Below, one piece after another: positions 42,754 to 47,223 of a DNA stretch of 64,000 nucleotides (its first letter is position 1; each line of letters starts with the position of its first letter). The stretch is from an uncultured Opitutaceae bacterium (GTDB lineage Bacteria > Verrucomicrobiota > Verrucomicrobiia > Opitutales > Opitutaceae), in the NCBI GenBank assembly GCA_951813085.1, contig OX638348.1, positions 1,993,627-2,057,626 on the forward strand, given 5' to 3'. The position numbers and the translations under genes are program-made. The notes below the pieces were generated by a model, which was not told the origin of the DNA, did not search any database, and worked only from the letters and a program-made list of their open reading frames with translations.

Positions 42754-43851
42754 ATGCAAACGCTAAAATTCGCAGTTCTTCCCGGAGACGGGATTGGTCC
42801 GGAAGTAATGAAAGTCGCCATCGACGCTCTCAAGGCAGCCACTGGCCCCGCTGGCATCGCTCTCGAATACGAAGAGGCCGACGTGGGCGGAATCGCTATC
42901 GACAACCATGGGGCAGCCTTGCCAGAGGCAACCGTCGCCCTATGCGAGAAAGCGGATGCGATCCTGTTCGGCTCCGTTGGCGGACCCAAATGGGAGAACT
43001 TGCCCCCCGCAGAGCAACCGGAACGAGCCGCGCTTCTTCCGATACGCAAGCATTTCTCGCTTTTTGCGAACCTACGTCCTGGGCTTCTTTACAAAGAGCT
43101 GACCGATGCCTCGCCACTTAAAACCGAGCGTATCCCTGATGGCATAGACATCGTATGCGTGCGCGAACTCACGGGCGGAATCTACTTTGGACCAAAAGAA
43201 ACGCAAACGCTCGAGGACGGGGACGTACAAGCCAGCGACACCATGGTCTACAAGCGCAGCGAGATCGAGCGTATCCTAGACGTCGCCATCGCTTCCGCAA
43301 AAGCTCGATCTGGCAAGATATGCTCGGTAGACAAGGCCAACGTTCTCACGACATCGGTCCTTTGGCGCAAAACCGCGACCGAGTACATCGCTGACAAAGC
43401 GCCAGAACTCGAGCTTAGCCACATGTATGTAGACAACGCCGCGATGCAAATGGCGCGCGATCCGAATCAGTTCGACGTGCTGGTGACCGAGAACATGTTC
43501 GGCGACATCCTATCGGACGAAATAGGCATCGTATGCGGCAGTCTCGGAATGCTGTCCTCCGCTAGTCTCGGAACACAGAACAATCAGCATGGGCATCCAT
43601 TTGGCCTCTATGAGCCATCCGGTGGGACCGCTCCCGACATCGCAGGACAAGGCATCGCCAATCCTTGCGCGCAGATCCTCAGTTCCGCCCTGATGCTCCG
43701 ATACAGCTTCGGGCTCAATGACGTCTCCGAAAAGATAGAAGCAGCCGTAAAGAAGGCTGTGATGGATGACATTCGCACCGGCGACATCGCTTTCGGAAAA
43801 CCCGCAGTCAGCACAAGCGAAATGGGAGAGGCCATTAAAGAACGATTGTAG
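42754..43851 (+). CDS. leuB: 3-isopropylmalate dehydrogenase
   Basis: Third step of leucine synthesis, NAD-dependent oxidative decarboxylation. I start at ATG 42754 (MQTLKFAVLPGDGIGPEVM) rather than nine codons earlier. 365 residues. Typical blocks are ILFGSVGGPKWENLP near residue 72, LRPGLLYKELTD, VRELTGGIYFGPKE near 142 (substrate-binding region), and the cofactor/metal site VTENMFGDILSDEIGIVCGSLGMLSSASLG near 245-275, then EPSGGTAPDIAGQGIANPCAQIL. The stop TAG at 43849-43851 shares its last G with the left repeat of the GxxExxY unit. Confidence 0.95.
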   Translation: MQTLKFAVLPGDGIGPEVMKVAIDALKAATGPAGIALEYEEADVGGIAIDNHGAALPEATVALCEKADAILFGSVGGPKWENLPPAEQPERAALLPIRKHFSLFANLRPGLLYKELTDASPLKTERIPDGIDIVCVRELTGGIYFGPKETQTLEDGDVQASDTMVYKRSEIERILDVAIASAKARSGKICSVDKANVLTTSVLWRKTATEYIADKAPELELSHMYVDNAAMQMARDPNQFDVLVTENMFGDILSDEIGIVCGSLGMLSSASLGTQNNQHGHPFGLYEPSGGTAPDIAGQGIANPCAQILSSALMLRYSFGLNDVSEKIEAAVKKAVMDDIRTGDIAFGKPAVSTSEMGEAIKERL

Positions 43852-43882
43852 GAACCACGGATGCACACAGATAATCACGGAT
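43851..43882 (+). repeat. Left inverted repeat of the GxxExxY unit
   Basis: 32 bases made of GGAACCACGGAT followed by two 10-base steps (GCACACAGAT, AATCACGGAT) that are variants of a CACGGAT core. The first 13 bases are a perfect inverted copy of 44294-44306. The ATG of the enclosed gene (43861) lies inside it. Confidence 0.8.
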
Positions 43883-44274
43883 TTTCTGGCCAATACAGCG
43901 AGCTGACGAGTGAGATTCTAGGTTCCGCATTCGAAGTACTAAACACGCTTGGAACAGGTCTCCTCGAGAAGCCCTACGGAAACGCATTGGCGATTGAACT
44001 CGAGTCCAGAGGAGTCATGGTCGATCAACAGCGACAATTTCCGGTCCTATATAAGCGCCAACAAGTCGGACTATACAGACCTGACCTTATAGCGGATAGA
44101 AAGGTCCTGATAGATACTAAGATCATTGATAAGATTACAAATATTGAACGCGCTCAGATGCTTAACTACCTAAGAGTATCCAAACTTGAGATTGGCCTTA
44201 TCTTAAACTTCAAATACTCAAAGCTCGAATACGAGCGCTTCATACTAAACAATTGGGGCATTCCTAAATTTTAG
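43861..44274 (+). CDS. GxxExxY (PD-(D/E)XK-like) protein
   Basis: A 137-residue small protein of the GxxExxY family, related to PD-(D/E)XK nucleases. The name motif is visible as LGTGLLEKPYGNAL near residue 36, where the spaced Gly, Glu and Tyr stand, preceded by ILGSAFEVLN. The putative nuclease core is YRPDLIADRKVLIDTKIID near 73, giving Asp and, after a short strand, D-x-K (a variant of the usual E-x-K). The end YLRVSKLEIGLILNFKYSKLEYERFI is typical. The first seven residues (MHTDNHG) are encoded by the left repeat. The function is unknown; the fold suggests DNA or RNA cleavage. Confidence 0.9.
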   Translation: MHTDNHGFSGQYSELTSEILGSAFEVLNTLGTGLLEKPYGNALAIELESRGVMVDQQRQFPVLYKRQQVGLYRPDLIADRKVLIDTKIIDKITNIERAQMLNYLRVSKLEIGLILNFKYSKLEYERFILNNWGIPKF

Positions 44275-44306
44275 ATCCGTGTCCATCCGTGTCCATCCGT
44301 GGTTCC
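44275..44306 (+). repeat. Right inverted repeat of the GxxExxY unit
   Basis: 32 bases directly behind the gene stop (TAG 44272-44274): two perfect copies of ATCCGTGTCC and then ATCCGTGGTTCC. It is the reversed counterpart of 43851-43882; the outer 13 bases pair perfectly. The alaS ATG follows four bases later, so this repeat forms the alaS leader and no usual ribosome-binding site is seen there. Confidence 0.8.
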
Positions 44307-44310
44307 AAAC

Positions 44311-47223
44311 ATGACCTCTAACGAAATCCGCCAGTCCTTTCTCGACTTCTTCGAGTTCAAGCAGCATTCGATCGTTCCTTCGGCGTCACTCATGCCGGAT
44401 GCGCCAAACCTGCTGTTCACGAATGCAGGCATGAATCAATTCGTCCCCTACTTCCTGGGCGATCGAGAGCCACCGTATCCACGAGCCGCCGACACGCAAA
44501 AGTGCATCCGAGCAGGGGGAAAGCACAACGACCTGGAAGATGTAGGTCTCGATACCTATCATCACACGTTTTTCGAAATGCTCGGAAACTGGTCATTCGG
44601 CGACTACTTCAAGCAGGAAGCGATCGAATGGGCCTGGGAACTCATCACCGAAGTATGGAAGTTCCCCAAGGAACGCCTCTACGCATCGGTTTACAAGCCA
44701 GGTGATGGCGATCCCGCTGAATTCGATCACGAAGCCTACGATTTCTGGAAAGCCGTTTTCGAAAAAGCAGGGCTCGATCCGGAAACGCACATCGTCTACG
44801 GCAACAAAGCGGACAATTTCTGGATGATGGGCGATACGGGCCCTTGCGGTCCGTGCTCCGAACTCCATGTAGACCTAACTCCAGAGGGCGATACTCGAGG
44901 GAAACTGGTCAACGCGGATTCCCCCTACTGCATCGAGATTTGGAATCTTGTCTTTATCCAGTTCAACGCCACTCCTGATGGAGACCTCGTCCCGCTCAAG
45001 TCGAGGCACGTGGATACGGGAATGGGATTCGAGCGGGTCGCCGGAATTATGGCGACTTCGAAAAACTTCACCGACTTCTCCGCGCCGCCTAGCAACTACA
45101 ATTCCGACCTCTTTACATCAATATTCGAGAAACTGGAATCGCTGTCAGGGCACGCCTATCAACGTACCTTGCCCGAAGATCTCGACAACATAAGCGAAAC
45201 CGAAATGAAGGACGTGATCTTTCGCGTCCTCGCCGACCATGCGCGATGCCTATCCTGCTCGATCGCAGATGGGATTCTTCCCGGCAACGAAGGGCGTAAC
45301 TATGTCCTACGACGCATTCTTCGGCGCGCCGTTATGTACGGCCGGAAAATCGGCCTGGAAAAGGGATTTTTCGCCGGGCTCGTGCCTACCGTTGCGGAGA
45401 AGCTCGGTCCTGTCTTTCTCGAACTGGATAAGCAGAAGGAGGTAGTCCAGAGAATCATTGAATCAGAGGAAGATTCCTTTGGGCGAACCCTCGACCGCGG
45501 TATACAGCTATTTGAGAAAATCGCCGATTATTTAGAATTTGTGCACAGCTCGCTCATTTTTACTCAAAATCAAATTAGCAAGTTTGGACCTGACAACGAA
45601 ACAACTACACTCACCGCATTGGCCGCAGCCCTCGATTCCGGCCCACCTTTGAGTTTAGTATCTGGCCACAACAAAAAAGCGGATACTTCTATAAAACAAT
45701 TATTTAATCATTGTGGTACCAATTTCGAAGGCCAAATTGAGCTAGTAACAAACACAAATGCAGCCTCTATTCTTTCGATTCCTGGCCCATCTGCGTTTGA
45801 GCTCTACGACACTTACGGCTTTCCCATAGACCTCACCCAATTACTTGCCAAGCAGCGGGGAATATCAGTCGACATCGAAGGCTTCGAATCTGAAATGGAA
45901 AAGCAGCGCGAACGCGCCCGTGCTTCCCAAAAGAAATCCGATATCCTCGTTTCCGAAGGCGAATCTGCCGAAGCCACCATCTTTACTGGTTACGATCAAA
46001 TTGAAATCGAAGCCGAAGTTCTGGAGGTACGGCACTCTCAAAAAGGTGAGAAGTACCTGATTTTTGACACATCACCATTTTACGCAGAAATGGGAGGGCA
46101 AGTTGGTGACACTGGGAGAGTTAGATTTGACGGACAAGAATTCAATGTGGTTGATACAACGAAAGATTCTTCAGGACGCATCCTTCATCAAGTAGTACCG
46201 ATCGAAGGTCCAGATCACGAGGCAGGAGGCACCTCCGACTTCAAAGGCAAAGTAGCTACTCTCTCTGTCAGCCAAGCTCGTCGCAAGAATATCGAACGGC
46301 ATCACTCAGCTACGCACGTATTGCATTGGGCCCTACGCGAGGTTTTAGGCTCCCATGTGCGGCAAGCGGGTTCCTATGTTGATGACAAGCGACTCCGCTT
46401 CGACTTCTCGCATTTTGAAGGCATTCCCTCAGACCAAATCGCGGAAATCGAGTCTCTTTGCAATGAACGCTTGCTAGAAAATAGCCCATGTCGCTGGTAC
46501 GAAACGCCTTTCGACCAGAAGCCTGAGGACGTGATCGCCTTTTTTGGCGACAAGTACGGGGATACCGTACGAGTTGTCGATATCGGGGGCTTTTCCAAGG
46601 AACTCTGCGGCGGTACCCATGTACGAGCAACCGGAGAAATTGGCCTGCTTCACATAGCGTCTGAATCCGCCATATCCGCCGGAACGAGACGTATCGAAGC
46701 CATTGTAGGCCCTATCGCGAACGACTATTTCAAAGACCTGGATAATACCCTGTCGCAATTGGCGAATAGCCTTTCCGTTCCTGCTTCCGATATCGTAAAA
46801 CGAGTCGATTCCCTAATCGCTAGGATATCGAAACTTGAAAAGCAGCTTAAAGCGTTTCAGCAGAAAGCAGCAGGCAATATCGCTGACGATCTCGCGAGCA
46901 ATGCATCCGTTAAGGATAGTCTAAAGCTTGTCGCCTCAGTCGTAGACGCTGACAATCCCAATGCGCTTCGCCAGCTCGGGGCGAATGTCCACGGCAAATT
47001 GGGAGAAGGAGTCGTGGTTCTCGGGAGCGCGATCAATGGGAAAGCGAGCCTTGTCGCCTTTTCGTCTCCCGAAGCGATCGCCGCTGGCCACAAAGCGGGC
47101 GACATCATTCGCTCCCTTACAAGCCTGTTGGATGGAAAAGGGGGCGGCAAACCCGATTTCGCCATGGGTGGCGGGGCAAACGTGGCAAAACTAAAAGAGA
47201 CGGTCGAAGGCTTCACGATCTAG
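44311..47223 (+). CDS. alaS: Alanyl-tRNA synthetase with an internal insertion
   Basis: 970 residues from ATG 44311, about 90 longer than usual. The class II core is normal (RQSFLDFFEFKQHSIVPSASL at the start, FFEMLGNWSFGDYFKQEAIEWAWELI near 89, GMGFERVAGIMA near 240). The editing domain has HHSATHVLHWALREVLG near 663 and CGGTHVRATGEIGL near 767 for zinc. Between RTLDRGIQLFEKIADYLEF and SAFELYDTYGFPIDLTQ, at residues of about 405-492, lies an extra AT-rich segment where most bacterial enzymes have only a short loop. Its C-terminal C-Ala end is normal. Its leader is the right repeat of the GxxExxY unit. Confidence 0.96.
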   Translation: MTSNEIRQSFLDFFEFKQHSIVPSASLMPDAPNLLFTNAGMNQFVPYFLGDREPPYPRAADTQKCIRAGGKHNDLEDVGLDTYHHTFFEMLGNWSFGDYFKQEAIEWAWELITEVWKFPKERLYASVYKPGDGDPAEFDHEAYDFWKAVFEKAGLDPETHIVYGNKADNFWMMGDTGPCGPCSELHVDLTPEGDTRGKLVNADSPYCIEIWNLVFIQFNATPDGDLVPLKSRHVDTGMGFERVAGIMATSKNFTDFSAPPSNYNSDLFTSIFEKLESLSGHAYQRTLPEDLDNISETEMKDVIFRVLADHARCLSCSIADGILPGNEGRNYVLRRILRRAVMYGRKIGLEKGFFAGLVPTVAEKLGPVFLELDKQKEVVQRIIESEEDSFGRTLDRGIQLFEKIADYLEFVHSSLIFTQNQISKFGPDNETTTLTALAAALDSGPPLSLVSGHNKKADTSIKQLFNHCGTNFEGQIELVTNTNAASILSIPGPSAFELYDTYGFPIDLTQLLAKQRGISVDIEGFESEMEKQRERARASQKKSDILVSEGESAEATIFTGYDQIEIEAEVLEVRHSQKGEKYLIFDTSPFYAEMGGQVGDTGRVRFDGQEFNVVDTTKDSSGRILHQVVPIEGPDHEAGGTSDFKGKVATLSVSQARRKNIERHHSATHVLHWALREVLGSHVRQAGSYVDDKRLRFDFSHFEGIPSDQIAEIESLCNERLLENSPCRWYETPFDQKPEDVIAFFGDKYGDTVRVVDIGGFSKELCGGTHVRATGEIGLLHIASESAISAGTRRIEAIVGPIANDYFKDLDNTLSQLANSLSVPASDIVKRVDSLIARISKLEKQLKAFQQKAAGNIADDLASNASVKDSLKLVASVVDADNPNALRQLGANVHGKLGEGVVVLGSAINGKASLVAFSSPEAIAAGHKAGDIIRSLTSLLDGKGGGKPDFAMGGGANVAKLKETVEGFTI

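Follow-up and report, generated by a model that had tools for sequence, protein, structure and literature searches.

In the 64,000-nucleotide stretch of DNA analysed here (the window; uncultured Opitutaceae bacterium, GenBank assembly GCA_951813085.1, contig OX638348.1, positions 1,993,627 to 2,057,626), the gap between the genes leuB and alaS (positions 43851–44306) is filled by one gene of the GxxExxY family enclosed by inverted 32-bp repeats. The left end (43851–43882, forward strand) reads GGAAC followed by CACGGAT at 43856, CACAGAT at 43866 and CACGGAT at 43876, and the right end (44275–44306, reverse strand) is an inverted copy of it with three CACGGAT at 44275, 44285 and 44295; that is, each end consists of three 7-letter units at 10-base steps. 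The two arms (32 nt each, 84% complementary, 392 nt between them) align without gaps, 27 of the 32 positions matching and the outer 13 being perfect. Their score of 19.5 was reached by none of 2000 dinucleotide-shuffled flank pairs (maximum 15). The repeats described in a first-pass annotation of the window are real and correctly placed.

The left arm begins on the final base of the leuB stop codon (TAG, 43849–43851), and the ATG of the GxxExxY gene (43861–44274, forward strand, 137 aa) falls inside the same arm at 43861. The stop codon of this gene ends at 44274, the right arm begins at 44275, and the ATG of alaS at 44311 lies 4 nt past that arm. These coordinates bear out the earlier proposal that the left repeat overlaps the leuB stop and encodes the start of the protein, with the right repeat directly after its stop. 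The annotation had also named both neighbours correctly: leuB (42754–43851, forward strand) matches the NCBIfam model TIGR00169 with 455.1 bits (cut-off 353.2), and alaS (44311–47223, forward strand) matches TIGR00344 with 836.1 bits (cut-off 457.05).

The product of the enclosed gene is, as had been supposed, a GxxExxY, PD-(D/E)XK-like protein, scoring 123.7 bits against TIGR04256 (cut-off 35) and 116.7 bits against PF13366 (PDDEXK_3; cut-off 22). Its GxxExxY motif is G33-LL-E36-KP-Y39, in which G33 and E36 are invariant and Y39 nearly so in an alignment of 49 rows. The predicted fold contains the conserved D...(D/E)xK of PD-(D/E)XK nucleases, the predicted residues being E36, D75, D85-x-K87 and Q99-x3-Y103; in a set of 17 rows Y103 is invariant and Q99 nearly invariant, albeit Q99 lies outside the 90% list of the 49 rows. 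The QxxxY motif is characteristic of the RecB/Cas4-like branch, to which the predicted nuclease of the window may belong. Neither a tyrosine (RAYT), DDE or HUH transposase nor an S23 protein was found in the unit, its open reading frame matching only PF13366 at E values up to 1. The family is large, with at least 8000 GxxExxY matches at E < 0.001 in a profile search. In one genome (G015, locus L170) a single open frame of 277 codons contains two GxxExxY matches.

Taking the locus together with the comparisons described below, we give roughly even credence to the interpretation that a small mobile element of widespread occurrence has one of its copies at 43851–44306, and that its nuclease would recognise the word present at both ends.

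Matched ends and word code of GxxExxY genes

GxxExxY genes were sampled from 57 genomes including that of the window (loci among the matches listed, plus stronger others chosen by place; fragments were left out). From 124 loci 125 genes were extracted, of which 116 were kept after removal of identical domains and of flanks shorter than 150 nt. The ends were scored by the best inverted match of the upstream against the downstream flank, with flanks of different genes as control. The median score was 18.75 in the GxxExxY genes vs 8.5 in the control pairs; 81 of the 116 genes reached 15 and 52 reached 20, compared with 2.3% and 0.7% of the mismatched pairs, the tail of which is raised by pairs of genes that share a word class. 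Among leuB control genes (28 of 30 loci used) a single one scored 15 or more. The recurrence of matched inverted ends at other GxxExxY loci agrees with the first-pass expectation, and so does the repeat-encoded protein start: a repeat-like N-terminus was detected with a loose, self-made pattern in 62 of 240 homologues, vs 0 of 240 at residues 61–72.

Seven GxxExxY genes are present in the genome of the window (G000), and the four with matched inverted ends (score at least 15) differ from each other in their unit, which is CACGGAT in the window, CACGAAA in L003, located between atpA and atpG, CGC(A/T)GAG in L001 and CACAAAA in L007. The remaining three (L002, L004 and L005; end scores 12–13) sit in other hairpin-like repeats. 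They belong to a clade, also including L079, L105, L107, L109 and L112, several members of which are flanked by GC-rich hairpins resembling repetitive extragenic palindromic (REP) sequences, not by word arrays. Different units occur in further clades, for example GCCAGGAA or AACGGAG.

In order to compare the words, a unit pattern, C[A/G]CN[A/G]AN, was imposed with a spacing of 8–12 bp set by rule; at least two units at both ends could be read in 51 of the 116 elements. In these elements both ends mostly share one word, which varies among elements. The two ends carry the same letter at positions 2, 4, 5 and 7 with frequencies of 0.88, 0.71, 0.93 and 0.90, and the units within one end do so with frequencies of 0.92, 0.72, 0.93 and 0.90, vs 0.49, 0.41, 0.52 and 0.37 across different elements. 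Altogether 22 words were assigned over 66 of the 116 elements. Since the word differs from element to element, the exact 13-mer forming the outer part of the window repeats cannot serve as a mark of the family. Autocorrelation of the ends peaks at lags of 9–10 (0.40 and 0.38, vs 0.32 and 0.26 in control stretches), and in the 30 of the 116 elements suitable for a strict spacer count the units are 8–11 bp apart, the two spacings being equal at both ends in 28 and 29 cases.

The words were then compared with a protein tree of 116 rows, built by a quick method, in which 46 of 113 inner branches are open. Letter 7 changes 7 times on this tree (23–33 times in 300 shuffles) and letter 4 changes 15 times (19–29), so that both, and above all letter 7, are largely set by the protein clade. 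The purines at positions 2 and 5 vary across elements and agree within each, from which we infer copying or conversion among units, or rapid co-evolution. A word that tracks the protein tree is what would be expected if the protein reads the word, and joint inheritance of gene and ends predicts the same.

Gene content of the leuB-alaS and atpA-atpG gaps

A leuB match was obtained in 31 of 38 genomes searched, and 30 leuB loci were read for what follows the gene. A GxxExxY sequence is present behind leuB in 15 of them, with alaS next in 14 (including the window; in G014 alaS was not seen). In five loci (G017, G024, G025, G034 and G035) alaS follows leuB without GxxExxY, and the gap of G034 keeps a stretch resembling a right end; in the remaining ten no alaS occurs within the stretch read. 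The five gaps are the empty sites that the first-pass annotation had called for, and, as the ends recur at other loci and gene-free leuB-alaS gaps exist, the outcome that it had itself named as fatal, namely repeats restricted to this locus and no empty site in relatives, is not what was found.

The intact genes of this gap occupy separate positions in the protein tree: the window with G005 and G009; G004 with G007, G018 and G022; and G012 and G014, both in a large clade yet apart from each other. The word at this one site is CACGGAT in G000 and G005, CGCGAAT in G009 (the ends of which are identical to each other over 35 nt), CACAGAT in G018 and G022, CACGAAT in G002 and G004, CGCAGAT in G001 and G007, and CACGGAG in G012. 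The tree of the gap sequences conflicts with that of leuB on G002, G004 and G018, and the word may have changed either by descent or by replacement of the unit. Behind leuB of G031 (L065), where no GxxExxY was seen, array ends of three words (CACAGAG, CGCAAAG and CACGGAT) form a scar-like stack.

The persistence of a GxxExxY sequence in the same gap of 14 genomes, decayed in G003, G006 and G010, would also suit an immobile arrangement, in which a static regulatory or terminator hairpin pair surrounds an old, vertically inherited resident gene. Such an explanation appears very improbable to us given that genes of separate protein clades occupy the gap, that the gene is missing in five relatives, that the end word varies among species at the site, and that mini-copies with a related core lie at six places in G289 (see below).

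Of the atpA-atpG gap, 18 of 22 loci were read. GxxExxY units occupy it in G000 and G009, and a unit of another clade with 11-bp spacing does so in G032; G008 contains a possible remnant and 12 loci contain no gene. In G003 (L417:1113-1540) and G001 (L420) the gap harbours an S23-like gene, outside rRNA, with matched inverted arrays of its own. The gene of G003 matches 23S_rRNA_IVP (PF05635) with 64.8 bits, the frame of G001 being shorter. S23 genes were sampled at 30 loci (TIGR02436) among the matches listed; five were scanned, all of them matching PF05635, and L455 has an internal stop. End scores of at least 15 were found in 17 of the 30, vs 2.5% of control pairs, and of at least 18 in 12, vs 0.8%. 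A sharp period of 7 bp marks the units of the S23 ends (autocorrelation 0.73 at lag 7). A match to the bAvd model, under its cut-off, was also obtained with one S23 protein.

Because the unrelated S23 gene has the same end architecture at a period of 7 bp, it would be the ends, and not the nuclease, that define the class of element. With spacings of 8–11 bp in GxxExxY and 7 bp in S23 elements, the first-pass idea that 10-bp phasing places the units on one face of the DNA does not hold in general. The overall first-pass interpretation is partly supported, the repeats and the gene forming one unit.

Arrays without a gene and their association with GxxExxY

The strict CACGGAT triple was found in at least 114 stretches of species genomes, judged by title to include Acidobacteria, Planctomycetes, Verrucomicrobia, Kiritimatiellae, Lentisphaerae, Cloacimonadota, Nitrospirae, Bacteroidota and Proteobacteria, and in 48 stretches of viral contigs (L291–L338). 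One viral contig of 37 kb has the triple seven times (pieces L291, L305 and L337), and none of the 48 viral stretches contained a GxxExxY match at E 1e-4.

Many of the array loci consist of facing array pairs across short loops. A scan of 238 loci (these 162 plus loci picked by gene or array; overlapping loci are counted twice) yielded 102 matched adjacent pairs, 77 of them less than 250 bp apart. Of the 21 pairs separated by 250–2500 bp, 20 contain GxxExxY (L274 does not), though 18 of the 21 come from loci chosen by the gene. Among 39 gene-less pairs with a triple at each side, 33 have the same outer dinucleotide at both (shuffle mean 18.3, maximum 28). The two spacers agree in 12 and 5 pairs (shuffle means of 6.1 and 3.9, with maxima of 14 and 12), barely over chance; agreement of the word carries no weight in this set because it was fixed by the search. 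Seven array pairs were read at different places of G289. Six share a related core (78–93% identity where the alignment stayed within the unit), and the seventh, L472, has mainly its ends in common with them.

These pairs and the S23 genes bear on an explanation at the level of RNA, in which the unit resembles the intervening sequences of 23S rRNA: with its ends paired in the leuB-alaS transcript, it would be excised by RNase III and so be harmless between two co-transcribed essential genes. The predicted fold of the window transcript does pair both ends (z -4.05; -3.40 as single-stranded DNA), and S23, the open reading frame of 23S intervening sequences (PMC4990558), has the same layout in intergenic gaps. 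In the strict count of 30 GxxExxY elements the spacers are identical between the ends in 16 and 8 (on average 2.4 and 0.9 in shuffles; maximum 8 for the first spacer), as pairing would need. Selected pairing, however, should leave more G-U than A-C among the mismatches, and the sense strands of 80 of the 116 elements contain 73 G-U vs 96 A-C (p 0.09), which disfavours it; nor does it fit the gene-less pairs, in which the outer dinucleotide is matched and the spacers little so. We thus consider excision from RNA improbable.

An array pattern independent of word class was also counted over 288 genomes of the phylum, 163 with and 125 without GxxExxY. The former contain 2406 of the 2466 arrays and the latter 60, and five or more arrays occur in 85 of 163 vs 4 of 125 genomes (Fisher odds ratio 33, p 7e-22, uncorrected for kinship). 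The association has exceptions in both directions, in that 33 of the 163 genomes have no such array and 22 of the 125 do. In genus g89, G076 alone carries GxxExxY and has 24 arrays; the other 19 genomes have 0 or 1. Of 41 loose CACGGAT hits in the genome of the window, seven were read outside the window, and one of these is array-like, a solitary CACGGAT-type array AACCACGGATTTCACGGATGAACACGGAGAGAGGTT at L012:1501-1517 (G000:C1:1983751). G071 has 141 arrays by the class-independent pattern alone, and its stretches L482–L486 are dense with inverted arrays of the CACGAAG, ACGGAGA, GTCCTATA, CCAATCAG and TTTTCTG types at varied periods.

Possible mobility and relation to known systems

Our best reading is that of a selfish or domesticated GxxExxY element, the nuclease of which mobilises full and gene-less copies; we infer its mobility as well as the binding and cutting of its ends. 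A multimer of the small RecB/Cas4-like nuclease would bind the repeated units at both ends and bring these together. It might then process this DNA, possibly in the form of a folded single strand, whereby intergenic gaps would receive the unit by copying or by transfer. Pairs without a gene would be moved in trans, in the way assumed for REP doublets forming hairpins (REPINs) and RAYT transposases.

Several observations weigh against this reading. Among the 116 GxxExxY genes 35 score below 15, and in several clades different units or hairpin-like repeats are found. For letters 2 and 5, the number of changes on the protein tree (17 and 15) is at the edge of the shuffled range (minima 17 and 15). 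Only 4 of the 162 loci selected by array contain a GxxExxY gene, which in three of them, including Nitrospirae (L201) and Gemmatimonadaceae (L290) contigs, lies inside an array pair. The genome of the window has few dispersed arrays, namely seven by the class-independent pattern including the two ends at 43851–44306, and the test of co-occurrence between arrays and GxxExxY is uncorrected for kinship. Dispersed words were compared with the resident ends in ten genomes with end scores of at least 15 (long lists for G071, G200 and G289, two array loci each otherwise, the gene's own end sometimes being one of them). Agreement was seen in G071 and G119, partial agreement in G076 and G135, and none in G072, G200, G230, G236, G289 and G318. 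Neither an exact empty-site junction nor a target duplication was found; no duplication is clear at 43851/44306, and the gene-free relatives are too diverged to show such a junction. Two GxxExxY proteins, L128 and L377, apparently lack the catalytic lysine (EAN and DTT for E/D-x-K) and retain matched ends. Finally, the unrelated S23 gene shares the end layout.

Part of this evidence would be accounted for if GxxExxY and S23 were passengers and the word arrays an independent repeat system, which a different enzyme or replication slippage and template switching would move. Two unrelated genes share one layout, many array pairs are free of genes and mostly closely spaced, dispersed words are mostly unlike the resident ends in the sampled genomes, and in the stretches read of G071 there are inverted arrays with several further words and periods. 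Against this stand the rarity of arrays in genomes without GxxExxY, the tracking of the protein tree by letters 7 and 4, and the presence of GxxExxY in nearly all of the wider pairs, with the reservation on their choice given above. We regard the passenger explanation, the main alternative, as rather unlikely, although it keeps some standing because S23 has the same layout and the words match loosely.

Returning to mobilisation by the nuclease, we tentatively propose a wider possibility, a new class of bacterial mobile DNA that may be called 'password elements'. Both ends of such an element would be inverted tandem arrays of a short word, the word changing in concert across all copies of an element. 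Unrelated small genes (PD-(D/E)XK at 8–11 bp, S23 at 7 bp) would each read the period and the fixed letters of the ends that enclose them. Gene-less copies would make up a major part of the intergenic repeats in many uncultured phyla, and the intervening sequences of 23S rRNA would be a branch that settled in rRNA genes. GxxExxY is a very common family of unknown function, and a readable word within a common end architecture gives it and S23 a testable job, that of binding and cutting the cognate word. If true, this would account for a large group of intergenic repeats and would add a REPIN-like system based on an unrelated nuclease.

No account of such an element was found in the literature searched, which comprised neither subscription papers nor preprints; GxxExxY is mentioned there in two papers and TIGR04256 in none, and the tested words appeared in one unrelated paper. 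Word-coded inverted arrays are likewise absent from the descriptions of the four related systems compared here, as far as the accessible portions of the papers cited below go. One of these is the REPtrons (RAYT/REP/REPIN), in which a lone small nuclease gene lies between inverted repeats and gene-less inverted doublets occupy intergenic gaps (PMC3733652); here such doublets abound in genomes other than that of the window. Their enzyme, however, is a tyrosine (HUH) transposase and not a PD-(D/E)XK protein. Their ends are single palindromes tagged GTAG or CGTC, whereas the window ends are arrays of a short word, reading GGAACCACGGAT... with no such tag on a palindrome, and the word varies here among elements of one genome.

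The intervening sequences of 23S rRNA with S23 are similar to the window unit in size (∼430–460 nt), in having one small open reading frame, in their terminal inverted repeats of ∼28–32 bp and in their scattered occurrence, and their origin and mobility are still called unclear (PMC4990558). S23 genes outside rRNA have the array layout of the GxxExxY unit. Unlike the intervening sequences, the unit lies between leuB and alaS and not in a 23S rRNA helix, it encodes a nuclease, and the ends of its relatives lack the G-U excess that would indicate RNA pairing.

The gene-less units of Thiomargarita, miniature inverted-repeat transposable elements proposed for PD-(D/E)XK_2 (YhgA-type), are also tied to a PD-(D/E)XK protein (PMC4853749). 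That protein is of another family, and the units have conventional 19-bp inverted repeats inside 10-bp direct repeats, the accessible description containing no word arrays. The TAACTGA heptamers of Beggiatoaceae and others form intergenic short-word arrays, often at start codons and sporadic across distant groups. They consist of a single word, mainly in direct repeats with one inverted set only, and the genes that follow them show no pattern (PMC4679880); the S23 ends described here share their 7-bp period, a likeness by description only.
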